Assembly: GCF_900142915.1 (NCBI RefSeq)
Contig: NZ_FRCM01000007.1
Span: 62,001-126,000, forward strand
Length of the DNA: 64,000 nucleotides
Reading direction: 5' to 3'
Origin: Mucilaginibacter sp. OK098
GTDB lineage: Bacteria; Bacteroidota; Bacteroidia; Sphingobacteriales; Sphingobacteriaceae
Positions within the stretch are counted from its first letter, which is position 1. Each line of letters begins with the position of its first letter. The position numbers were made by a program, and so were the translations under genes. Of this stretch, positions 8,999 through 64,000 are shown one piece after another. The notes under the pieces were generated by a model that searched no databases, was not told where the DNA came from, and saw only the letters and a list, made by a program, of their open reading frames with translations.

Positions 8999-10819
8999 AT
9001 GAAAAGATCTATAATATATGTACTGCTGCTTACTCCTTTTTTACTGCGTGCGCAGTCGGTAAAAATAGTTACCAATCATGTTGGGTATGAAGACAACCGC
9101 GCCAAGCACGCCATTATAGTTGCAGACAGCAAGCTGAACATAAATACATTTAACCTGGTTGATGCCGGTACAGGTGTAAGCGTATTTACAGGTAAACCTG
9201 TATTTAGCGGCCCGGTTAACAAATGGAAGAACTTTCAATTTTGGACGATTGACTTTAGCACAATTACAACTCCCGGTACTTATAAGCTGCAGATCCAGTC
9301 TGCAAAAGGCCCTGTATCTTCCTATCCGTTTATCATCGGGAAAAACGTACTGGAAAAAGCTACTGTATCTGATGTGGTATATTATTTCAAAGGCCAGCGC
9401 AGTTCTGGCTTGCTGGATAAGGCCGATCATCATACCTTATTATCAGGTAAAACAACTGATACCATTGATGCGCATGGTGGCTGGTACGATGCTACGGGCG
9501 ATTATGGCAAGCACCTTTCACATCTTTCATTCTCCAATTATTTCAATCCGCAGCAAATTTCACTAACAGCGTGGAGCTTGTTTAAAACCTACGAGCTTTT
9601 AAATGCAAGGCCGGGAACAGATTTCAGGCAGTTTAACCGCAGAATTTTGGACGAGGCTATGTATGGCGCTGATTATTTGGTGCGGATGCAGGCCAAAGGC
9701 GGATCATTTTACCGTTCAGTTGGTGCTCCCGGTCCCGGGAAATTGCCAAAGGACAGGATGATCCCTGCCGAAGAAGGCAGCTACCGGATAAAGAAAACCA
9801 AAGACCAGGCGTTTAATAAAGCCTCCACTGAAAAAAGCTGGCGGCTTTACCAGTCCAGCTACCGCTCAGGTGCGGGGATGGCCATAGCCGCGCTGGCAAT
9901 GGCGTCAGCTTATCCGGTAAGCGGGGAATTTAGCAATGCAGATTATTTAAAAGCCGCCGAAAACGCCTTTGCTTTTTTAGAGAAAGATAACGAGCAAATG
10001 GATTATGATCACAAAGAAAATATGCTGGATGATTATTGTGCTCTGAATGCGGCTACAGAGCTTTATAAAGTAACAAAAAAGGACGTTTACAAAGCCGCGG
10101 CTGCAAAAAGGGCCGCTAATATTATGGGCCGCCTGGTTACCTGGAAAAATTATAAAAATTATTTCAGGGCCGATGACAAGGATCGTCCGTTCTTTCATCC
10201 ATCTGATGCCGGGCTACCGGTAGTAAGCTTGTTATACTATTACCCATATGCTACTGCAGACGAACAGGCACGGATCAAAAAAACCACAAAAGAATCAATG
10301 GAGTTTGAGTTGGCTATTACACACGAGGTAAACAACCCGTTTGATTACAGCCGCCAACTGGTGCAGGATACTTTGGGAAACAGGCGAAGTTCTTTCTTCT
10401 TCCCGCATGGCAGCGACGCTTCCCCATGGTGGCAGGGCGAAAATGCAAGGCTTGGCTCGGTTGCCGCAGCAGCAAGAATGGTAGCCGCGTTGTTTAAAGA
10501 TGATAAACCGTTTCACGATCAGCTGGACGGCTTTGCGCTTGACCAATTAAACTGGATTCTCGGGTTAAACCCGTTTGATAGCTGCATGCTGCAGGGGACA
10601 GGGCACAACAACCCTGCCTATGGTTTTTTCGGAACGTTTGAATACACCAATGCCCCGGGTGGTATCGTGAATGGTATAACCTCGGGTTTTGATAACGAGG
10701 ACGATATAGATTATAATATCCCCTATGCCGTATCGGGCAAAGATTCAGACTGGCGCTGGGCCGAGCAATGGCTGCCACATACGGCGTGGTATTTACTGGC
10801 GGTTTCCTTAAATGATTAA
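8999..10819 (+). CDS. Secreted glycoside hydrolase family 9 protein
   Basis: I place the start at ATG 8999 rather than 8984 because it gives a clean signal peptide (MKRSIIYVLLLTPFLLRAQ). Residues about 20-115 form the Ig-like N-terminal domain of CelD-type GH9 enzymes (TNHVGYEDNRAKHAII). The (alpha/alpha)6 catalytic domain follows with GGWYDATGDYGKHLSHLS; the two Asp (about 164 and 168) match the catalytic base region. The C-terminus has LNWILGLNPFDSCMLQGTG and WAEQWLPHTAWYLLA, whose Glu (about 589) is the likely acid. GH9 covers endoglucanases and also exo-beta-glucosaminidases; next to an amino-sugar PTS the latter is worth testing. The downstream thioredoxin-fold gene is 11 bp away, so they form an operon. 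Confidence 0.88.
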   Translation: MKRSIIYVLLLTPFLLRAQSVKIVTNHVGYEDNRAKHAIIVADSKLNINTFNLVDAGTGVSVFTGKPVFSGPVNKWKNFQFWTIDFSTITTPGTYKLQIQSAKGPVSSYPFIIGKNVLEKATVSDVVYYFKGQRSSGLLDKADHHTLLSGKTTDTIDAHGGWYDATGDYGKHLSHLSFSNYFNPQQISLTAWSLFKTYELLNARPGTDFRQFNRRILDEAMYGADYLVRMQAKGGSFYRSVGAPGPGKLPKDRMIPAEEGSYRIKKTKDQAFNKASTEKSWRLYQSSYRSGAGMAIAALAMASAYPVSGEFSNADYLKAAENAFAFLEKDNEQMDYDHKENMLDDYCALNAATELYKVTKKDVYKAAAAKRAANIMGRLVTWKNYKNYFRADDKDRPFFHPSDAGLPVVSLLYYYPYATADEQARIKKTTKESMEFELAITHEVNNPFDYSRQLVQDTLGNRRSSFFFPHGSDASPWWQGENARLGSVAAAARMVAALFKDDKPFHDQLDGFALDQLNWILGLNPFDSCMLQGTGHNNPAYGFFGTFEYTNAPGGIVNGITSGFDNEDDIDYNIPYAVSGKDSDWRWAEQWLPHTAWYLLAVSLND

Positions 10820-53557: not shown

Positions 53558-54109
53558 TCAGGTTATAATTCGCTCACGCACTTTTACCGCCGGGTTTCCC
53601 TGGTAAATTGAGTATGCTTCCAGGTTTTTAGTGGCTACCGACCCGCTTGTTAATACAGCATGCGATGCGGCAATTACACCCAGATTAACTATTGCCCCCG
53701 CTCCTATCCAAACACCATCCTCTAATATTACAGGCTGAGTTATCAGGTCGAATGTCTTCTTTTTATAATTATGGCTTCCCGTAAGTAAAACAGCTCCCTG
53801 CGAGATACAAACATTATCGCCCATGGTAATTGCAACAAGGCAATCAATCCAAACATTTTCCCCAATCCATGTATGGTTCCCAATGGTTAAATGCCAGGGG
53901 TATTTTACATTAGCTCCTGGCTTTATAATAACCCCCTTACCAATTTTAGCACCAAATAAACGCAGTAAAAATATATTGAAACTGCTTGACGGAAGCAGGC
54001 CCCCTTTTAAAAATACTAAATTTACATAATACCACAACAGCCTTTTTATAGCATTGCCTCCCGGTTTAAAAGGCGAATTATTATATAATGAAAGGTCAGT
54101 TTTTAGCAT
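53558..54109 (-). CDS. WcaF-type hexapeptide-repeat acetyltransferase
   Basis: 183 residues of left-handed beta-helix repeats: GAKIGKGVIIKPGANV, LTIGNHTWIGENVWID, ITMGDNVCISQGAVLLTGSH, VILEDGVWIGAGAIVNLGV and GNPAVKVRERI. The catalytic His of this group is in TGSHNY. It probably O-acetylates a sugar of the lipid-linked repeat unit, as WcaF does in colanic acid synthesis. Its start overlaps the end of the fused glycosyltransferase gene by 14 bp. Confidence 0.9.
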   Translation of the reverse strand: MLKTDLSLYNNSPFKPGGNAIKRLLWYYVNLVFLKGGLLPSSSFNIFLLRLFGAKIGKGVIIKPGANVKYPWHLTIGNHTWIGENVWIDCLVAITMGDNVCISQGAVLLTGSHNYKKKTFDLITQPVILEDGVWIGAGAIVNLGVIAASHAVLTSGSVATKNLEAYSIYQGNPAVKVRERIIT

Positions 54110-55550
54110 CGTTGTTAATCAATATATCATTACGCTTTACCCAAAAGTAAAGCACAATGGCAATAATTATGTATACAATTATGTTAAAAATGGCATGATG
54201 ATCAATTATCTGGCTCTCCCTCCTGTTCCAGAATAAAGAGAGCAGTACAAATCGGATAACGTTTAAAACCTCGATCCCCAAAATGCCACCAATAAGAAAG
54301 GCGATCTTTGATTTGAATTTTACAGGGTAAGCTAAAACAAATGCAGCAAAAAAGCTAATAACTCCTAAACCAAGGCATGAGTAAACCAGTTTAATAACGC
54401 CACGACCTGCAACCAAAAGCTCATACTGATTTTCAATAACCGCAAACCCAAGCCATGTAAGAATTTGAGCACTGCTTTTTATTAATATCCACCTCAATCC
54501 ACTTATATAATTAAGGTTATTAGCCATAAACGAACTGTAATGACTACCGGTTGAAGTAATGCCAAAATAAAATATGTTGAAATAATAAAAGGCAGGAAAA
54601 AGCACGGCAAATATTATTATGAATCTTAAAGAGACATTACTTTTAGCGGAGTTTGTCTTCAGCGCGCTTTCTTGCTTTAGAATTTCATCAATTTTAATAT
54701 CAACAATAAGGCGGAACCAAAATGCTTGCAAAAAATGAAAAATAACACCGGTGCGGCCGTCAAGAATACCGAGCTGAAAAAATATGCGATAAATAAAATA
54801 AAGCATCGGCCTTACATACCGTGGTAGCTTCCACCATAGCTGTTTTAACCATGCTGTGCGTTCATCAGGCGAACCCCAAAAATGCGGCCCAACCGTTTGG
54901 CTACGCATCTGCTGCATCCGTTCAACCTCTTCCTGGGCAACCAGGTCACTGTACCGATTATGTTTGGCAATCCAAAAGCTAATATTGTTTTCCTTTAAGT
55001 TTTCCTCTAAAATATAACCGTCTTTCCAGATAACTGTATTCCCGGGGACTATCAAACGGTGATCCATCATTTCATTAAGATCAGAATAGCCAACGCCAAA
55101 CCTGATCATTTTAAGCAGGTAAAACGGCGAATAACCCCCATGTTTTATCCACCGGCCTTTAAAAAAGTTTTTACGGTTAAAATAAATGCCGTCAAGATCC
55201 TTATTATCTTCATCCTTGAAATTACTCAGGCGCTCTTTAAGCCCGGGAGTTACTATTTGGTCGGCATCCAGGCAAATTACCCATGGGGTTTGAATGTTAA
55301 AATTTTTTAATGCATAGTCCCATTGTTTGGGGTGATTTTCGAAAGCATGCTGTAAAACCGTTGCTCCATAATTTTCTGCTATCGCGATGGTATTATCCGT
55401 ACTTCCCGAATCTAAAACAAAAACCGGTGCATCAAGACTTTGGATAGATGCAAGCAAACGGGGCAAATGAATTTCTTCATTATAGGTTATTATAATAAAT
55501 GAAAATTGATTGTTCACGATAGCTTCGCTTTTATGATCATGGATTTCCAA
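54096..55550 (-). CDS. Glycosyltransferase family 2 fused to an exosortase-like domain
   Basis: 484 residues. The first half (about 16-250) is a GT-A transferase of the WaaE/KdtX type: FSFIIITYNEEIHLPRLLAS, FVLDSGSTDNT and the metal-binding CLDADQ. The second half (about 308-473) has six or so membrane segments and exosortase/archaeosortase landmarks: Cys392 in VYSCLGLG, Asn430-Arg433 in VLNVIRFVLLS, and His451/His452 in IDHHAIFNIIVY. Exosortases cut and transfer C-terminal sorting tails of exported proteins, often in exopolysaccharide loci. A fusion to a sugar transferase is remarkable. GTG at 55517 is an alternative start that would overlap the upstream stop as GTGA. The exosortase call rests on motifs seen by eye. 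Confidence 0.82.
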   Translation of the reverse strand: MEIHDHKSEAIVNNQFSFIIITYNEEIHLPRLLASIQSLDAPVFVLDSGSTDNTIAIAENYGATVLQHAFENHPKQWDYALKNFNIQTPWVICLDADQIVTPGLKERLSNFKDEDNKDLDGIYFNRKNFFKGRWIKHGGYSPFYLLKMIRFGVGYSDLNEMMDHRLIVPGNTVIWKDGYILEENLKENNISFWIAKHNRYSDLVAQEEVERMQQMRSQTVGPHFWGSPDERTAWLKQLWWKLPRYVRPMLYFIYRIFFQLGILDGRTGVIFHFLQAFWFRLIVDIKIDEILKQESALKTNSAKSNVSLRFIIIFAVLFPAFYYFNIFYFGITSTGSHYSSFMANNLNYISGLRWILIKSSAQILTWLGFAVIENQYELLVAGRGVIKLVYSCLGLGVISFFAAFVLAYPVKFKSKIAFLIGGILGIEVLNVIRFVLLSLFWNRRESQIIDHHAIFNIIVYIIIAIVLYFWVKRNDILINNDAKN

Positions 55551-56134
55551 AAATACGGAAACCTTCCACAGCCTCTGAATGCTGTAACCGTAAAACCGGC
55601 ATTGGTTAATACCCTGGTCAGCGTATTTTTAGACCATAGCTTAATATGTCCGCCCAACCAAAGCGGATCCATATGGCTGTCCCACCTGTTAAAAATACTT
55701 AGCGTTAGGTTTTTTAAATAGCCATGATAAGGGGTGGTTATTATCAGCTCACCACCCGGTTTTAGTTGTTGTTTACAAAAATCAATAAATGCTTCCGGGT
55801 TGTACAAATGTTCTATTACCTCGGTTGATATAATGGTATCAAAAGGGATCCCTTGTAATTGCGGTGGCAAAACATCCGATGACAGGTCCTGTACAAAAAA
55901 ACGGTCCGGGTTTGTTTTTTGTGCAATAGCTATACCTTTTTCAGACGCATCAGTACCATAAGCGTTATAGCCTTGTTCAAGCAGGTAATTTACCAGGTAT
56001 CCATTGCCGCAGCCTAAATCAAGAATGTATTTATTTTTTTCCTTATCAATCAGGCTAACAAGGTCATTCAACTGGTAGCTAAAATTATGAGTAGGGCCTG
56101 CGCTATGAAATCCGTAATCCTGATAATCAGCCAT
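55514..56134 (-). CDS. SAM-dependent class I methyltransferase
   Basis: 206 residues. Motif I YILDLGCGNGYLVNYLLEQG (36-55) binds S-adenosylmethionine; AYGTDASEKGI and FDTIISTEVIEHLYNPEAFI are the next landmarks. No membrane segment, so cytoplasmic. In this operon it most likely methylates a nucleotide sugar or a lipid-linked glycan. The start overlaps the end of the GT4 gene by 8 bp and its end overlaps the fused transferase gene. Confidence 0.9.
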   Translation of the reverse strand: MADYQDYGFHSAGPTHNFSYQLNDLVSLIDKEKNKYILDLGCGNGYLVNYLLEQGYNAYGTDASEKGIAIAQKTNPDRFFVQDLSSDVLPPQLQGIPFDTIISTEVIEHLYNPEAFIDFCKQQLKPGGELIITTPYHGYLKNLTLSIFNRWDSHMDPLWLGGHIKLWSKNTLTRVLTNAGFTVTAFRGCGRFPYFWKSMIIKAKLS

Positions 56135-57260
56135 TTATAACATTATTATACATATCGGTATATTGTTTAGTTAGATGAGCTTCATTAAAATCAGCCCTGA
56201 TAATTTCCGGAGCACTTAAACGGATGCGATTAAGCTCGTCCTTTTTACCGTGAATAAAATTAATCATATTACCCACTGAAATAGCATTTAGCTCACACTC
56301 CCAGCCTAAATTATTTTGGTTAACGTAATCAGCTAAACCTACAAACGGGCTTATCAAAACTGCAGTACCCTGGCTAAGGCTTTCAATAACTACATTGCCA
56401 AAGTTTTCATCGTATGACGGTAAAACAAGCAGATGATGTTGAGCCAATAATTCAAACTTATTATCGCCCTGAAAGCCTATCCAATAAACATCTGCCTCGT
56501 CGCCATTTTTTTTCACCACAGCCTTTAGCTCGTCTACATACATTTTATCCCCACTCCCTGCAATGGTAAGGCTGTATGGAAAATTTAAAAACGGCAGGGC
56601 GTTTATCAAAATATCCAAACCTTTTTTTTCTTCTATTCTTGAAAGAAAAATCAGCTTAAAAATAGCTAAAGATTGAGCGTCCCCCGGCAAATCAGCAGGC
56701 AATTTTACAAAATTAGGCAAGTTACTAATCCGTTTGGGCTTAATGAGCGCATAGATAGCTTCACTTTCTTGATTTGATGTTACATGAATATGGCACCTGT
56801 TAAGTAAAGGCCTACCCAATAAGTGATGTATAAGCCATTTTTTGCCAATATTTTTGTTTTGAAACGAATAAGGGCTTAACGTACCCCTGGGTGATATAAC
56901 AATGGGAACACTGCGCAATAATGCAATTAAACATGAAAATACCGACACCAGGTTCCACCAGGCATGAATATGAATTACATCAAAACCGCGAGCCTCCTTC
57001 CACAATTTTTTTAACAGCGCCGGCGAAAAATGGCTGTGGTCTTTTGTTAACCGTTTAAAATAGGTTACTTTAACACCGTCTACATTTACAGCCTCACCAG
57101 GGTTAACAGGCAACTCTTCTTTCCCGTTGGCAGTTGTTGCATAAGCTTCGATGTAAATACCAGCCTTTGTCAACTGTTCGCTCAACATGGCTACCGACAT
57201 AGTTGGCCCGCCGTATATAAATGCCGGTTTGTAAGCAGCACAGATCTGTAAAATTCTCAA
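56127..57260 (-). CDS. Glycosyltransferase family 4
   Basis: 377 residues with the GT-B fold. The N-terminus MRILQICAAYKPAFIYGGPT and glycine loop mark the acceptor side. The donor domain has LSRIEEKKGLDILINALPFL and the E-x7-E motif ENFGNVVIES, with GTAVLISPFVGLADYV. It is a retaining transferase on the cytoplasmic face, adding a sugar to the lipid-linked unit. It overlaps the Wzy-like gene stop by 4 bp (ATGA type) and the methyltransferase by 8 bp. Confidence 0.92.
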   Translation of the reverse strand: MRILQICAAYKPAFIYGGPTMSVAMLSEQLTKAGIYIEAYATTANGKEELPVNPGEAVNVDGVKVTYFKRLTKDHSHFSPALLKKLWKEARGFDVIHIHAWWNLVSVFSCLIALLRSVPIVISPRGTLSPYSFQNKNIGKKWLIHHLLGRPLLNRCHIHVTSNQESEAIYALIKPKRISNLPNFVKLPADLPGDAQSLAIFKLIFLSRIEEKKGLDILINALPFLNFPYSLTIAGSGDKMYVDELKAVVKKNGDEADVYWIGFQGDNKFELLAQHHLLVLPSYDENFGNVVIESLSQGTAVLISPFVGLADYVNQNNLGWECELNAISVGNMINFIHGKKDELNRIRLSAPEIIRADFNEAHLTKQYTDMYNNVING

Positions 57261-58660
57261 ATTTCTTTTAATATATTTCTTGAACGCAATATTTTAAATA
57301 CAACCAGCATTGTTATGTAACTCCAAAAAACGGAGTTAATAAGAAATTCAAAACTTAAACCCCGCCAAAATATTTGAAACAGCCCGCTGAATATGAGTGC
57401 CGTGCCTAAAATATAGCCCCCAAATAATTTTTCAGCTTTACACGCTATTATTTGAGCCATCGCTCCATATGCAAAAAGAAAAATGAAAACTCCAATTCCG
57501 CCGTATGATAAATAAGCATCAACAATAAAAGCAGGTTTAGCCGAAACATTAGAGTTTCTGTTTACTACCCCTGCACTATAAACACGCTCCATAATCAGGT
57601 CTTCAGTAATTGGCTTAGATGGCCAGAATATCCGTGGAACTATAACTATGGCTGATTGTTTTACCAATTGCGTTCCATAAAAATCCACCTTCGCAGGTGT
57701 TGATTTAACAAACTTGGTAAACATTTCTATTTCACTTAACCTATATACCAAAAATCCCCAATTGGTATTATCGTCAGCATCTTTATTAAGGGTAGCGTTA
57801 AGGGCTATCTGTGTAGCATCATCAGCACTTTCCTCGCCTGACCATACATTCCCCCGAAAATTACTTACATAAGCAGGCAAAAACACAAATAGTAAAATTA
57901 ATAACGGCACAAAAACAATGGTCACAATCTTCTTATAGTTTGGGTATAAAAATACCCCCAGCACCACCACGCTAATAATAATAGGCTCCTTAAATCCGGA
58001 AGTAAGCGCCTGGTAAAAGTTAAAAATATATAGTGCAAGGCAAATTATGGTATTTATTACTTTTTGCAGAGGCAGTGCAAAAGCAAGTGCAAGTGTACCG
58101 GCGATAAAGCTTAAAGCGCTAAGTTGAAAATAGAGCTGAGATAGTCCGGGGATCCGCGCAAAAAATATTGAAACCGGGAAGGCAATTAAAGCTGTCATTA
58201 ACAGCAAATTGGCCAACTTTTCTTTTTCAATATAATACTTTTGCTTTACAGGGTATTTCATAAATATCAATATCCCCGAAACAAATGCCGCATGCCCTAA
58301 ACAATAATACCTTTGGCATTGTGCCGCCAAATCCAACGCATCCTGATCTATCGCTAACGCAGCATTTGTTTTGCTCAAATATTCATATCCCAAAAGACTT
58401 AAAAAATAAAATATTGAGGTGCATGCCATGTAGCCCGCAAAAATTATCTGGATAATAAATATTGGCCGCATTAATTGTTCCGCAACAGTTCTGTCATCCG
58501 GCAGGGGTTTTATTTTACCGGTTAACGTAACAAAGAAAATAAAGAATGAACCCAGCCATGCAATAAAATAGGAAACAGTAGAAAACGATTGAAATAACAA
58601 GGAAATAGCCCATGGCAAAAAGAGTATAAAATGTTTTGCTATATCGTTACCCTTTTTCAT
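57257..58660 (-). CDS. Wzy-like polysaccharide polymerase
   Basis: 467 residues with about twelve membrane segments and a long periplasmic loop (about 275-370) holding FRGNVWSGEES, VPRIFWPSKPITEDLIM and KPAFIVDAYLSYGGIGVF. This layout is that of O-antigen/exopolysaccharide polymerases, which join lipid-linked repeats outside the membrane. Low sequence conservation in the family means the call rests on topology and context. Wzy-like proteins are reported near some Bacteroidota exosortases, which fits the fused gene two positions downstream. Confidence 0.75.
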   Translation of the reverse strand: MKKGNDIAKHFILFLPWAISLLFQSFSTVSYFIAWLGSFFIFFVTLTGKIKPLPDDRTVAEQLMRPIFIIQIIFAGYMACTSIFYFLSLLGYEYLSKTNAALAIDQDALDLAAQCQRYYCLGHAAFVSGILIFMKYPVKQKYYIEKEKLANLLLMTALIAFPVSIFFARIPGLSQLYFQLSALSFIAGTLALAFALPLQKVINTIICLALYIFNFYQALTSGFKEPIIISVVVLGVFLYPNYKKIVTIVFVPLLILLFVFLPAYVSNFRGNVWSGEESADDATQIALNATLNKDADDNTNWGFLVYRLSEIEMFTKFVKSTPAKVDFYGTQLVKQSAIVIVPRIFWPSKPITEDLIMERVYSAGVVNRNSNVSAKPAFIVDAYLSYGGIGVFIFLFAYGAMAQIIACKAEKLFGGYILGTALIFSGLFQIFWRGLSFEFLINSVFWSYITMLVVFKILRSRNILKEI

Positions 58661-58663
58661 GAA

Positions 58664-59509
58664 TTACGCAGGTATGCAAAATATATTACCGCCCTCAACA
58701 TTTTCCGGGCTCTTTAAAAGTTCACAGCCAACCGGTGTTATCTGGTACATTGTGTAGCCAAACGATTGCAAAAGGGACCAGCAATCCTCAATTTTTTGCC
58801 CGTTGTTTAGCCAATAATGGTTATCGTATTCAAAAATTATCCGCGGCTTATGTTTCTGAAGCGTTTTTGCCAGGCCCTGTAATACCTGGTATTCAAAACC
58901 CTCTACATCAATTTTTATCAAATCAAGCGAATCAAGACTTTGGATCTCGGGGAGATTATCAGCAACCTTTATAAATACACGCTGTTTTTCAGATCCTTCT
59001 ATATTACTATTTAAACTAAAAGCACCCTGGTTCCATGAGTTTTTATTTATGGTAAAATCAGCCTCGCTTTCCTTGCTTGATAACGCATAAGGTAACAGCG
59101 TAACATTAGCAACTTTGTTCAACAACATATTACGGGTAAATTTTTCCTGCAAATAAATAAGCGGCTCAAAAGCATAAACTTTACCTGTTTGCCCAACGCA
59201 TTGCGACATCCTGATGCTTTGCAAGCCTATATTTCCACCTATATCTAATGCATTCCCGCCATTTTTAAGTGAGACCCTGATCAGTTTATTTATCTCATCT
59301 TCGTAAGTGCCGGTACTTAAAATGGTCCATTCAATATAGTTATCGGCACTGGTATAAATAGCTATATCCTCGCCGCTTAACCATACTATCCCCTCTTTTA
59401 TACTTGCTTTAAGCTTATCAGATGCCTTCAGCAGGTTTGAAAGCCGTTCCTTCCCGGGAAGTTTCCAGTTACGGGTAAAATCAAGTTTAATACGGTCAAT
59501 ACGCTTCAT
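58664..59509 (-). CDS. FkbM family methyltransferase
   Basis: 281 residues. The SAM-binding core has GNALDIGGNIGLQSIRMSQC (about 87-106) and VYAFEPL; the FkbM signature LDLIKIDVEGFEYQVLQGLA lies near 199-218. Such enzymes O-methylate sugars in glycans and natural products. Its start overlaps the following GT4 gene by 14 bp; a 3-bp gap leads to the polymerase gene, so coupling is tight. Confidence 0.92.
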   Translation of the reverse strand: MKRIDRIKLDFTRNWKLPGKERLSNLLKASDKLKASIKEGIVWLSGEDIAIYTSADNYIEWTILSTGTYEDEINKLIRVSLKNGGNALDIGGNIGLQSIRMSQCVGQTGKVYAFEPLIYLQEKFTRNMLLNKVANVTLLPYALSSKESEADFTINKNSWNQGAFSLNSNIEGSEKQRVFIKVADNLPEIQSLDSLDLIKIDVEGFEYQVLQGLAKTLQKHKPRIIFEYDNHYWLNNGQKIEDCWSLLQSFGYTMYQITPVGCELLKSPENVEGGNIFCIPA

Positions 59510-60656
59510 TCAATAATTTATTTTCAATTGCTTCCGCAATATGTAAAAAGCTCCAGTTTTTGATGATCTGTTTTGATTGCTGTCCTAATTTAGCTAATTG
59601 AGCCTTGTCTTTAGTTAATTGCTGTAATTTTTCCACCAGGCTGCCCGCGTTATCACTTATAAAAACAGCGCCATTTCTTTCCTCTTCTATTAAATCAGCC
59701 GCACAGCCCACTTTATCTGATGCCAATACGGCTTTGCCGCAGGCCATGGCCTCATTTATACTTAAGCCCCATGTCTCGCTTTTACTGGGCAGGCAAAACA
59801 AGTCGGCCGCCTGGTACAAAACAGGCATGTAGGTTTGATTTTTAAACCCGGTAAAATGAACATTGGCAGCACCACTTTTATCAGCCTGCTCTTTTAAATC
59901 ATTTTCATTGGGGCCGTTACCTGCTAAAAGCAAATGCACATTGGGCCGGTTCAAAGTTATAAATGCCGACAATAGTAACTCAACATTTTTAACCGGCTCA
60001 AACTTGCCCGCATACAGGATCAATATATCGTTATTACCGATACTGAATGATGACCGCAGTCCGCCAGCTTCATTGCTCCTGTCGGCTTCAAACCTGTTAC
60101 TATCAATGGCGTGTGGTGCAAAGCTTAGCTGGCTCTCCTTCAGCTCGTAAGCTTTATAATAATTTCTGTTGTTTTTGCCTACATAAAAAGCATGGTTAAT
60201 ATGCTTGTACACCCATTTCAAAAAAACGTACCGAAGCGCTTTTTTTAATCCGCCTAACTCGTTCAGTAAGGTTGAATCACCACGAAAATATACGGGCACT
60301 TTACTGCTAAAGTAGCGGATTATTTTCAGGTGAGCGTTATATGCCCAGCCAAAGATCAATATAGCATCCGGCTGATATTTTTTAATCCTTTCAATTCCAT
60401 CAGGATTAACAATTCCTTTAAAATAGTGCGAGCCGGGCTCAGTCGCCGTATTTTTCATCCACTCAAAGTCATATCCCTCCAGCAACGGAATGTCCCACTC
60501 AACTACTTTATTAAAGCCATGATCGAGCTTGTTAACAGCACCCTCGCCCAAAGTATAAAACACCTTAACATCTATTTTTTTACGCTGATTCAAAAGCTTA
60601 AACACTGGTGCGTAATATTGAATAGGATGGGTTGTTATAACCGCCAGCTTCTTCAT
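59496..60656 (-). CDS. Glycosyltransferase family 4
   Basis: 386 residues, GT-B fold. The start MKKLAVITTHPIQYYAPVFK is typical of a subgroup of GT4. The donor side has LYAGKFEPVKNVELLLSAFI, then SKSETWGLSINEAMACGKAV (E-x7-E) and DLIEEERNGAVF. Cytoplasmic face; sugar not predictable. Its gene overlaps the acyltransferase by 4 bp and the FkbM gene by 14 bp. Confidence 0.93.
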   Translation of the reverse strand: MKKLAVITTHPIQYYAPVFKLLNQRKKIDVKVFYTLGEGAVNKLDHGFNKVVEWDIPLLEGYDFEWMKNTATEPGSHYFKGIVNPDGIERIKKYQPDAILIFGWAYNAHLKIIRYFSSKVPVYFRGDSTLLNELGGLKKALRYVFLKWVYKHINHAFYVGKNNRNYYKAYELKESQLSFAPHAIDSNRFEADRSNEAGGLRSSFSIGNNDILILYAGKFEPVKNVELLLSAFITLNRPNVHLLLAGNGPNENDLKEQADKSGAANVHFTGFKNQTYMPVLYQAADLFCLPSKSETWGLSINEAMACGKAVLASDKVGCAADLIEEERNGAVFISDNAGSLVEKLQQLTKDKAQLAKLGQQSKQIIKNWSFLHIAEAIENKLLNEAY

Positions 60657-61744
60657 TTGGCAGTTAAATTACCTATTGATAAAAATGGTTTTTCCAGCAA
60701 ATTATAGCTAAGTGACGATAGCGGATATAAAATAACCGCGCTTATAACGGTGGTAACAACCGGCGCCGCAATGCCTTTTAATGATGGCATCAGCTGAATT
60801 GTGTAAGTAGCTATTACCGGGTATACCAAAGGATGCAAAAGATAAAAGCTATAAGATATACGCCCCATTTTTTTAAATAACCCATTGCCTAAAATAACAT
60901 TGAGCCACTTTACCGAAACTACCGACAGATATAAGATCCCGGCGAAACCTGTCCCCATAAAGACATAGCCAAATAACTTGAATAAATTGGAATAATTAGC
61001 TGATAAGCTTAAAACTTGTTTAGATATTAAAACCCTGCCAGCGTAGGTAACAGCAATAAATAACATTAGCCATAAAAACCTTTTTTTAAAAAATGCATTG
61101 TTTTTTATCAGTAGCCTTGCAGCAATTGATCCGCATCCAAACTCCAGTCCTCTAAAAAATATTGTATCTGTAATCGGGTCAAAACGACTTTTTAAAATAA
61201 ACACCAATACTATCGCAATTAAAAAAGCGCCTCCAAAAATAATTAAAAACGACTTTTTAAACCCAATCCTGTTTTGATAGATCAACAGCAAGGGTATGGT
61301 AAAATAAAATTGCCATTCAACGGTCAATGTCCAAAAATGTGAAGCGGTATTATATTGTATGAAAAAATAATTCAGATAAAAAACACTATGCAGAAAATTA
61401 CTGAGCCCATCAATATTTTGATGATGAACAAACTTGCCGACAAGGATATAAATTATAGTAGCCACGTAGAAAGCCGGCGAAAGCCTTACCCATCTTTTTA
61501 CCAGGAACCTAAAAAAATCATGATAAGAAAAATCACTTTTCGAAGCGTAAAAATAATACATGCAAAACCCACTGATCACAAAAAAGAGGTCGACACCATT
61601 ACCACCAATAGCCAGCAAATTAGCCAGATCAAATTTACCAATATAACATCTCGGGTTACCATGAATCGTCCAGGTATGGATCCATAGAACGCCTATGGCG
61701 GCTAAAAATCTCAGTCCGTCAAGTGTTTGTATTCTTTGTCTCAT
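60653..61744 (-). CDS. Acyltransferase 3 family membrane protein
   Basis: 363 residues with about ten membrane segments. Signature at the start: RIQTLDGLRFLAAIGVLWIH, with the conserved Arg and His, then GNGVDLFFVISGFCMYYF and KRWVRLSPAFYVA. It should O-acylate the polysaccharide or its lipid-linked unit in the membrane. Similar in family, not in close sequence, to the gene at 50760. It overlaps neighbours on both sides (26 bp with the GT upstream, 4 bp downstream). Confidence 0.92.
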   Translation of the reverse strand: MRQRIQTLDGLRFLAAIGVLWIHTWTIHGNPRCYIGKFDLANLLAIGGNGVDLFFVISGFCMYYFYASKSDFSYHDFFRFLVKRWVRLSPAFYVATIIYILVGKFVHHQNIDGLSNFLHSVFYLNYFFIQYNTASHFWTLTVEWQFYFTIPLLLIYQNRIGFKKSFLIIFGGAFLIAIVLVFILKSRFDPITDTIFFRGLEFGCGSIAARLLIKNNAFFKKRFLWLMLFIAVTYAGRVLISKQVLSLSANYSNLFKLFGYVFMGTGFAGILYLSVVSVKWLNVILGNGLFKKMGRISYSFYLLHPLVYPVIATYTIQLMPSLKGIAAPVVTTVISAVILYPLSSLSYNLLEKPFLSIGNLTAK

Positions 61745-63032
61745 AATGTTTTATGGCCCTGGTAAATAATTCAGCCTGTTTACCTGTAAGGTTTTCTGAA
61801 CTGTATTTTTTGAAATTATTTGAAATAGATAAAGGCTTAAATAAGCCATTACCCCACCCTGTTAATGTTTTAAATAAATCAGCAACCAGGTGAGATGCAT
61901 CTTCATTAAAGGTTAAAACAACGGCATCGCCGGTACATTCCTTTATAGCTTCAACGGCATTACTCTTTTCATTAAAAATTGCGAGTAGTGGTTTTCCGGT
62001 TAACAGGTACGGGTACACTTTTGAAGCTGTATATCTGGGGTCGTCCGAGCCGGGTATAAATAAAGCATCGGCCTGTTGTAAAGTTAATAAGGTATGATAA
62101 TAGCTGATCCTGTCGGTAATTTCAACCACATTCTCATCAAGTCCGTATTTTTTTGCCAGTGGCAAAATTGTAGGCTTACCAGTACCTGCCGGCGCATAGC
62201 TGGTGCCTATAAAATAAAACCTCAGCTTGCCAAACACACCGGGATTTTCAGCAAGTCCTTTTTTTAGGGCTTCAAAAACCGGTGAAATGGCCTTTTGCAT
62301 GTCCACACCACCACGGCCCACATACACAATGTTTTTAAAGCCGTTTTGCAATAATGAATCGAATTTAGTTTGATTATCCAGCGCTATTTTTAAATCCGGC
62401 TCAAAAGCGCCAAATGTAATGGTGGCAGATGGGATGTCATTTATAACAGGATACCTGGCTTTTAAATTGCTGATATAACCGGCAGATACGCTGATCAGTC
62501 CATCTGCCTGCTTCATGGCAATAGGCTCCAGGTATTTATGTAAGCGATAGGAGAACCAATATTTTGACGGCTGCTGATCCTTGGGTTTATCCTGGTAATA
62601 ATCCGAATGCCATGGGTCCTGCATATCTATTACATAAGGAATGCCGAACCGCTTTTTCCAGTAGGCCCCTAAAATACAAAGCGGAAATTGGGTAGTTGAA
62701 AAATAAACAAGATCGTACTTTTCCTTTTTTAAGATCTCACTTACCTTTTTACGGTAATACCAAAGGGAGCGTAAAGCAAGACTGCCTAATCCAACTTTTG
62801 AGGTTAGTGCGCTGCTTAAAGCTTTTACTTTATAAATTTTTGTCGCTGCAGGGATACTTTGAACAAGCAGTTCATCCTGCACTACATCTGAGTATTTTTC
62901 ATCAATTATCACTACAGTGGCATCCCAGCCAAATTGCTTAAAATAAGGCAAGCTCATCCTTACACGATGCATATCTGCCGCGTTTGAGGGTGGGAAATAC
63001 GGCGAGATGATGAGAACTTTAGCGTTTGGCAC
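61719..63032 (-). CDS. GT4-like glycosyltransferase
   Basis: 437 residues, GT-B-like. The start VLIISPYFPPSNAADMHRVR and the helix YFKQFGWDATVVII resemble WbuB-type transferases. The middle has YVIDMQDPWHSDYY; the donor part has NIVYVGRGGVDMQKAISPVF, LFIPGSDDPRYTASKVYPYL and GKPLLAIFNEKSNAVEAI. The usual E-x7-E is not evident, so it belongs to a divergent branch. Named XrtY-associated transferases may be related; I cannot check this. Overlaps both neighbours. Confidence 0.82.
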   Translation of the reverse strand: MPNAKVLIISPYFPPSNAADMHRVRMSLPYFKQFGWDATVVIIDEKYSDVVQDELLVQSIPAATKIYKVKALSSALTSKVGLGSLALRSLWYYRKKVSEILKKEKYDLVYFSTTQFPLCILGAYWKKRFGIPYVIDMQDPWHSDYYQDKPKDQQPSKYWFSYRLHKYLEPIAMKQADGLISVSAGYISNLKARYPVINDIPSATITFGAFEPDLKIALDNQTKFDSLLQNGFKNIVYVGRGGVDMQKAISPVFEALKKGLAENPGVFGKLRFYFIGTSYAPAGTGKPTILPLAKKYGLDENVVEITDRISYYHTLLTLQQADALFIPGSDDPRYTASKVYPYLLTGKPLLAIFNEKSNAVEAIKECTGDAVVLTFNEDASHLVADLFKTLTGWGNGLFKPLSISNNFKKYSSENLTGKQAELFTRAIKHYETKNTNT

Positions 63033-64000
63033 TACTTAATGTTTGATTAACAAGATCTAAAAATCTTTCACTTTCATTTTCCCAGTTCAGGGTATTTTTA
63101 GCCAAAAGCCATGATTCCTCCCGGCTTTTTAAAAGCAGATCCCGGTTTTTATTATATGCCGATAAAACATCAGTCAATGATTGAACGTTTCCCTTTTGAT
63201 AAATGTTCCCAATGGCTGGGTATTGATTCAATAAAGCGCTTTGGGCAGTGGTGTCACTTGCCGCAATAGCCAAACCGGCCTGTATATAAGTGAATATTTT
63301 ATTGCTTAACGCAAAATCATTATTGATGCTAAACCCGGGCTCCGTAGCCAGCCCAATATCAAATTGCGCTGCAAACCCAACCAATGCCGCCGGCATAACC
63401 GGCTGATGGTAAAAGATCTTTGCAACACCATTATTTAGTTGTTCAATGAATGTTATCGTCTGTGTTGAATGATAGCCCAGCAGGTGCAATTCAAAATTCT
63501 CGTCTTTTAAAATATGCAGCGCTTTTACAACATCTTCTATCCCACGGCTAACACCAATAACCTGCGAAAACCAAAAGAGCTTTACAGGTTGACCGGCATT
63601 TAATTGAGGTTGCTTTACATCATTATTAAAAGAGAAAACATTTAGCAGGGTAACAGGCTTTTTATCCGGAAAAAGTTGATGATATGCATTAGCAGTTTGT
63701 GTGCTGCTTGCTGATAAATAGCTTACCTGCGGAATATACTTATCCTCAATAAATGCTTTTAAAACAACTTCGCTATCGTTGTTATCATTTGAGCTTTCAT
63801 ACCGGTGAAAATCCTCTGCATCAAAGCCGCATAGCTTTTTATGTTTTTGCGATGCTTTAACCACCGCAGGTAAAGCACCAAGATTATGCCCGATGTACAG
63901 ATCAGCCTTGTGTTTTTTTGCTTCCCGGATTAAAAAATAGCTGCTCCTGGCAATGGCAAATTGCGCAAAGTACTTAATACCGGTATGTTTTGTAACCCAT
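63019..64000 (-). CDS. GT4-like glycosyltransferase (5' end outside the window)
   Basis: Partial gene: the frame is open to the right window edge. Past the first internal GTG (63864) it still reads FAQFAIARSSYFLIREAKKH and ADLYIGHNLGALPAVVKASQ, a typical GT4 acceptor-domain stretch, so the true start lies beyond 64000. The donor part has LFWFSQVIGVSRGIEDVVKA and KIFTYIQAGLAIAASDTTAQ. It overlaps the next gene by 14 bp and shows that the operon continues upstream. Confidence 0.8.
   Translation of the reverse strand, partial: WVTKHTGIKYFAQFAIARSSYFLIREAKKHKADLYIGHNLGALPAVVKASQKHKKLCGFDAEDFHRYESSNDNNDSEVVLKAFIEDKYIPQVSYLSASSTQTANAYHQLFPDKKPVTLLNVFSFNNDVKQPQLNAGQPVKLFWFSQVIGVSRGIEDVVKALHILKDENFELHLLGYHSTQTITFIEQLNNGVAKIFYHQPVMPAALVGFAAQFDIGLATEPGFSINNDFALSNKIFTYIQAGLAIAASDTTAQSALLNQYPAIGNIYQKGNVQSLTDVLSAYNKNRDLLLKSREESWLLAKNTLNWENESERFLDLVNQTLSSAKR

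Follow-up and report, generated by a model that had tools for sequence, protein, structure and literature searches.

The soil bacterium Mucilaginibacter sp. OK098 encodes a protein whose identity as a GT2 glycosyltransferase fused to the exosortase XrtY is established in this study, and which, judged by its sequence, is a member of a family already named by NCBI. Fusion of the two enzymes is common in the genus and not a singular event, and comparative genomics strongly supports their functional coupling. Beyond the window, which is the whole stretch of 64,000 nucleotides analysed, 87 loci around XrtY (a few duplicated) were read at the DNA level. The two genes are fused in 42 of these loci, and in 40 GT2 lies immediately upstream of XrtY, mostly overlapping it; the remaining five are L082, which carries an insert, L117, a fragment, and the distant, sub-cut-off loci L067-L069. 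Among the whole genomes of 37 congeners, XrtY scores above its cut-off in 26, and GT2 (E below 1e-60) is present in exactly the same 26. The XrtY-associated Wzy occurs in 25 of them, the exception being G006, whose XrtY sits on a contig of 5.5 kb. In the other 11 congeners all three genes were absent. This identical phyletic pattern indicates that GT2 and XrtY form one inherited unit with the polysaccharide pathway, and because sister species carry the pair as two adjacent genes, both very probably act on one and the same surface polysaccharide. Among 395 sampled Bacteroidota, XrtY above cut-off was confined to the same family, with sub-cut-off matches in two genomes of another family. Among the exosortase matches listed for these 395 genomes, only G000, G155 and G165 hold frames longer than 400 residues; G165 was considered as another GT2-exosortase fusion and rejected, the protein being XrtN-like with no GT2 as read.

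The open reading frame proposed by an earlier sequence-only reading of this DNA is present on the minus strand (Table 1). Its true start is probably the GTG at 55517, giving a protein of 473 rather than 484 residues, because the ATG start of most relatives falls at residue 12; the codon there in the window is GTG, part of a GTGA in which the gene overlaps the upstream stop by 4 bases.

Table 1. Features of the GT2-XrtY fusion gene and its operon in the window
Feature	Position	Strand	Remarks
Multi-span membrane protein, 527 aa	51915..53498	-	No Pfam or NCBIfam match; kept beside XrtY in most loci
WcaF-family polysaccharide O-acetyltransferase	53558..54109	-	14-base overlap with end of fusion gene; conserved next gene in most loci
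GT2-XrtY fusion ORF as first called	54096..55550	-	484 aa, TTG start
XrtY exosortase domain	54096..54653	-	Residues 300-484
GT2 glycosyltransferase domain	54654..55550	-	Residues about 12-299
SAM methyltransferase	55514..56134	-	Immediately upstream in most, not all, loci
XrtY-associated glycosyltransferase XYAG1	56127..57260	-	NF046085, 548 bits (cut-off 400)
XrtY-associated Wzy-like polymerase	57257..58660	-	NF046084, 742 bits (cut-off 420)
Rest of operon upstream, in window	58664..63864	-	Five genes, listed singly below
FkbM methyltransferase	58664-59509	-	
GT4	59496-60656	-	
Acyltransferase	60653-61744	-	
GT4-like	61719-63032	-	
Further conserved gene	63019 onward	-	

Residues 306-471 match the NCBIfam model exosort_XrtY (NF046083) with 226.3 bits against a curated cut-off of 160 bits, and the exo_archaeo signature TIGR04178 scores 36.7 bits for the ORF and 42.7 bits in the genome search (cut-off 23). 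PF09721 (EpsH) gave no match to the protein at E <= 0.1 in Pfam. The exosortase identity therefore rests on the NCBIfam models, and on these scores we would not file the protein among the EpsH-type exosortases. The sequence-only reading had described a GT2 transferase joined to an exosortase-like domain and guessed at XrtY, and both proposals are borne out; its expectation of a match to exosortase models held for XrtY and TIGR04178 but not for PF09721.

An alignment of 116 rows, 90 of them with an exosortase domain and including XrtX- and XrtF-like rows, revealed that Cys392, Asn430 and Arg433 are invariant (90/90), and that His451 and His452 are each kept in 89/90 rows. The sequence-only reading had named these residues as an exosortase triad, with correct positions, and the Cys, Arg, His order of the superfamily (TIGR04178) is indeed present as C392, R433 and H451/H452. 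Since each histidine is lost in one row, either is a candidate for the catalytic residue. In L141 and L143 (Mucilaginibacter phenanthrenivorans, about 9100-10620), residues 374-400 are matched twice in different frames in both fused copies, as if a short duplication (about 80 base) over the Cys motif had broken XrtY in each.

Hydropathy places four hydrophobic spans in the exosortase half (306-324, 388-406, 419-437 and 453-471), and the charge averaged over rows is positive in loops 294-305 and 408-416 and in the tail, and not in 333-347 and 367-394. By the positive-inside rule applied to the 90 sequences, this charge pattern leads us to predict that GT2 and the C-terminal tail are cytoplasmic, and that Cys392, Arg433 and His451/452 lie within about five residues of the outer (periplasmic) membrane face, where the earlier reading had expected them. 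The AlphaFold2 two-domain model built from the 116-row alignment, on which our conclusions draw, is confident (pLDDT 92.1, pTM 0.73); a model from 15 sequences was poorer (pLDDT 68). A sequence search up to E = 10 found no solved relative of the exosortase half.

The N-terminal half matches PF00535 (57.6 bits, residues 17-137; Pfam gathering cut-off 23.3), keeps the DxD of GT2 as D95/D97 in 68/68 rows, and is closed by a membrane-hugging helix at 261-299. In the fold search, matches were taken up by this half and have little bearing on the exosortase fold. The model has a GT-A fold, with ThuS/SunS as the best match entry (Z 18.3 and rmsd 3.1 over 203 residues against ThuS) and WrtF and TarS/TarP as other solved GT2 matches. 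Because the acceptors of these proteins differ, no acceptor can be assigned to the GT2 from them.

The fusion gene stands at the end of an approximately 50 kb EPS cluster, in a minus-strand operon. The XrtY-associated Wzy and XYAG1 lie upstream, both above cut-off, so that the locus can be recognized as the XrtY polysaccharide locus already known to NCBI; the closest relative locus is 95% identical. The 527-aa membrane protein may possibly be a periplasmic GT-C type transferase. On its upstream side the cluster extends about 36 kb past the window end with many glycosyltransferases, and its distal genes encode an ABC transporter, an asparagine-synthase-like protein, a NusG-like protein, a Wzz/tyrosine-kinase (Wzc-type) and an SLBB polysaccharide-export protein (Wza-type). 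Downstream of the XrtY cluster are ordinary genes, for adenylate kinase and an Obg-like GTPase (the latter by its sequence). A single locus, L055 (12595-17373, G003), carries the XrtY-associated Wzy in three tandem copies.

The genome holds one exosortase, XrtY; a second candidate proved to be merely a weak stretch with stops. PEP-CTERM and PID-CTERM models yielded nothing beyond chance matches in this genome: the lone PEP-CTERM match lies in the interior of an unrelated protein, and four PID-CTERM matches are under the cut-off with tails that are not credible. A scan for tripartite tails (signal peptide, C-terminal span and basic tail; canonical tails only) picks up, in sister genomes, the PID/PIN-CTERM proteins encoded next to XrtX and thus works. 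No recurrent tripartite tail appeared in 2.1 Mb of XrtY neighbourhoods or in the scanned portion (2.0 Mb, 47%) of G316, a complete genome with XrtY, a scan that a lone non-canonical target would escape; the 100 stretches of G316 gave 15 candidates, scattered and dissimilar, with no family among them. A many-target system of the PEP-CTERM kind is unlikely for XrtY.

Several small proteins were seen on the way. One conserved near two XrtY loci of other genera (L064:5852-6103 and L140:18932-19165) has a signal peptide, a WYxxPWVWAxGxAxFI span and a short Arg/Lys end. In sister genomes, the XrtX-type loci or neighbourhoods L056, L057, L058 and L059 contain one or more examples of a small PID/PIN-CTERM-like protein with a tail of the form ...PINNGLxFLMxAGxxIG..., several of them under the PID_CTERM cut-off.

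On balance, we favour the reading that the protein is a two-domain enzyme of the XrtY system of polysaccharide assembly, in which GT2 would contribute a sugar to the repeat unit and XrtY would ligate an exported protein to one of the pathway's glycans or glycolipids. From family knowledge, GT2 would extend the lipid-linked EPS repeat unit by a sugar on the cytoplasmic side, and the unit would then be flipped across the membrane. At the periplasmic face, near Wzy, XrtY may serve as a Cys transpeptidase, cleaving an exported protein close to the C-terminus and linking it to that glycan or glycolipid; the fusion would then keep the ligase in a single complex with the enzyme that makes its acceptor. 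Here we infer both the transpeptidation and the linked molecule. In favour of this scheme, a single operon holds XrtY, XYAG1 and the XrtY-associated Wzy, each scoring above its cut-off. Also in favour are the invariant catalytic residues, the predicted topology, the confident model, the GT2 fold, the fused or adjacent genes in nearly all loci, the shared phyletic pattern, the interchange of fused and split states on the tree, and experimental work that ties other exosortases to EPS adhesion, biofilm and surface colonization (PMC12188702, PMC10936215). Against it stand the absence of a sorting-tail protein from the searches above, the predicted placement of the two active sites on opposite membrane faces, which would make a direct hand-over of substrate impossible, and the lack of fusion in half of the species, which indicates that fusion is not required. 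The sequence-only reading had suggested that fusion couples sugar transfer with transpeptidation: the functional link is supported, GT2 and XrtY being fused or side by side in every intact XrtY locus and sharing one phyletic pattern, but no protein substrate was found. More tentatively, GT2 and XrtY might be a dedicated ligase pair, the cytoplasmic half making and the periplasmic half using a glycan acceptor, or, in a stronger form, joining glycans without a protein.

It is also possible, if rather doubtful, that the exosortase domain has no protein substrate at all, and that its Cys-Arg-His site instead acts on a lipid or on a lipid-linked glycan built by GT2, for instance in releasing the polymer or anchoring it. 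Neither the family models nor a scan that recovers XrtX targets found a sorting-tail protein, and the genome's one exosortase sits in an EPS operon by Wzy, as this alternative would have it. The scan, however, looked for canonical tails in 47% of one genome and would have overlooked a lone target of a non-canonical kind. To our knowledge, moreover, every studied exosortase or archaeosortase system acts on proteins. Examples are ArtA (PMC4343526) and CrtB (PMC12188702), and XrtG, which glycosyltransferases likewise accompany, is found next to a Firmicu-CTERM protein (PMC12854382).

Less likely again is that fusion brings only equal expression and co-localization, with neighbours joined by single indels and the enzymes acting independently within the operon. 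In 30 of the 40 split loci the reading frame of XrtY is shifted by +1 from that of GT2, and XrtY mostly starts before the GT2 gene has ended, so that one indel suffices for fusion; fused and split forms occur side by side among close relatives, and in L082 a 0.76 kb insert parts GT2 from XrtY with both halves intact, all of which fits such independence. Yet the adjacency survives changes of the GT2 itself, whose type (about 75% or about 36% identical to that of the window) switches about six times on the tree, and fusions are known with both types (L038, L043). The tree of 79 domains requires the arrangement to switch between fused and split about five times, and well-supported branches force three or more of these switches; it counts changes and not their direction, and the Pedobacter outgroup shows the split state. 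The insert of L082 itself includes an 83-aa frame (L082:9370-9621) with a signal peptide, a CPLDSWVVV... span and a basic tail. That a sequencing or assembly error joined unrelated genes is refuted by about 40 fused loci in independent genomes, by a junction with neither stop nor frameshift, and by the confident two-domain model.

Neither the recurrence of the GT2 fusion nor the strict pairing of GT2 with XrtY seems to have been described in the literature searched, where we found no account of XrtY as an exosortase or of an exosortase-glycosyltransferase fusion. A recurrent exosortase fusion with one cytoplasmic glycosyltransferase, co-present and co-absent across the genus, points to a product of the polysaccharide pathway as the partner molecule. 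It thereby bears on the question of the molecule to which exosortases attach cut proteins, which has been described as an unidentified compound, possibly an amino-acid-modified sugar, with asparagine-synthase-like genes in the vicinity (PMC7468200). If the dedicated-ligase reading were true, the fusion would show what exosortases attach their substrates to, and in its stronger form XrtY would join glycans without any protein. Each half of this single protein could be disabled by one mutation. The EPS cluster here begins with genes that include the asparagine-synthase-like one (L063:10949-12736), some 30 kb upstream of where the window ends; it scores 412 bits with TIGR01536 and 356 bits with the XrtA amidotransferase model TIGR03108, under the 817 cut-off of the latter; its presence would weakly fit the idea of an amino-acid-modified sugar as acceptor.

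Compared with known systems, the locus is closest to the NCBIfam XrtY system, all three models of which (NF046083, NF046084 and NF046085) clearly exceed their cut-offs in adjoining genes of a single operon. The model NF046083 comprises only a 168-residue exosortase domain, and the GT2 fusion or constant GT2 partner is outside the family definition as displayed. The next-closest exosortase subfamily by score is that of XrtX and PID-CTERM (67.5 bits), found in sister genomes; XrtX genes stand alone by small PID/PIN-CTERM proteins, whereas XrtY lies in an EPS operon without such a neighbour. XrtN with its VIT-domain target offers a further comparison: the XrtN-like exosortase of L259 (G165) is also long, at 442 aa, but its extra part is not a GT2 as read. 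Within L259:1613-5433 it directly follows a presumed target of 831 aa with a VPEPHEW-type tail (VPEPHEW...).

XrtG of Gram-positive bacteria is likewise an exosortase with associated glycosyltransferases (PMC12854382), but these are separate genes with a Firmicu-CTERM target alongside, and the XrtG model is absent among the matches of the fusion protein. The EpsH/XrtA PEP-CTERM system has many PEP-CTERM targets, none credible in the genome of the XrtY fusion, which PF09721 does not match; like XrtY, however, both this system and cyanoexosortase B are in or tied to an exopolysaccharide locus. When Nostoc loses cyanoexosortase B, its EPS attachment and adhesion, motility and biofilm are disturbed (PMC12188702), and exosortase loss in Flavobacterium disturbs colonization (PMC10936215).
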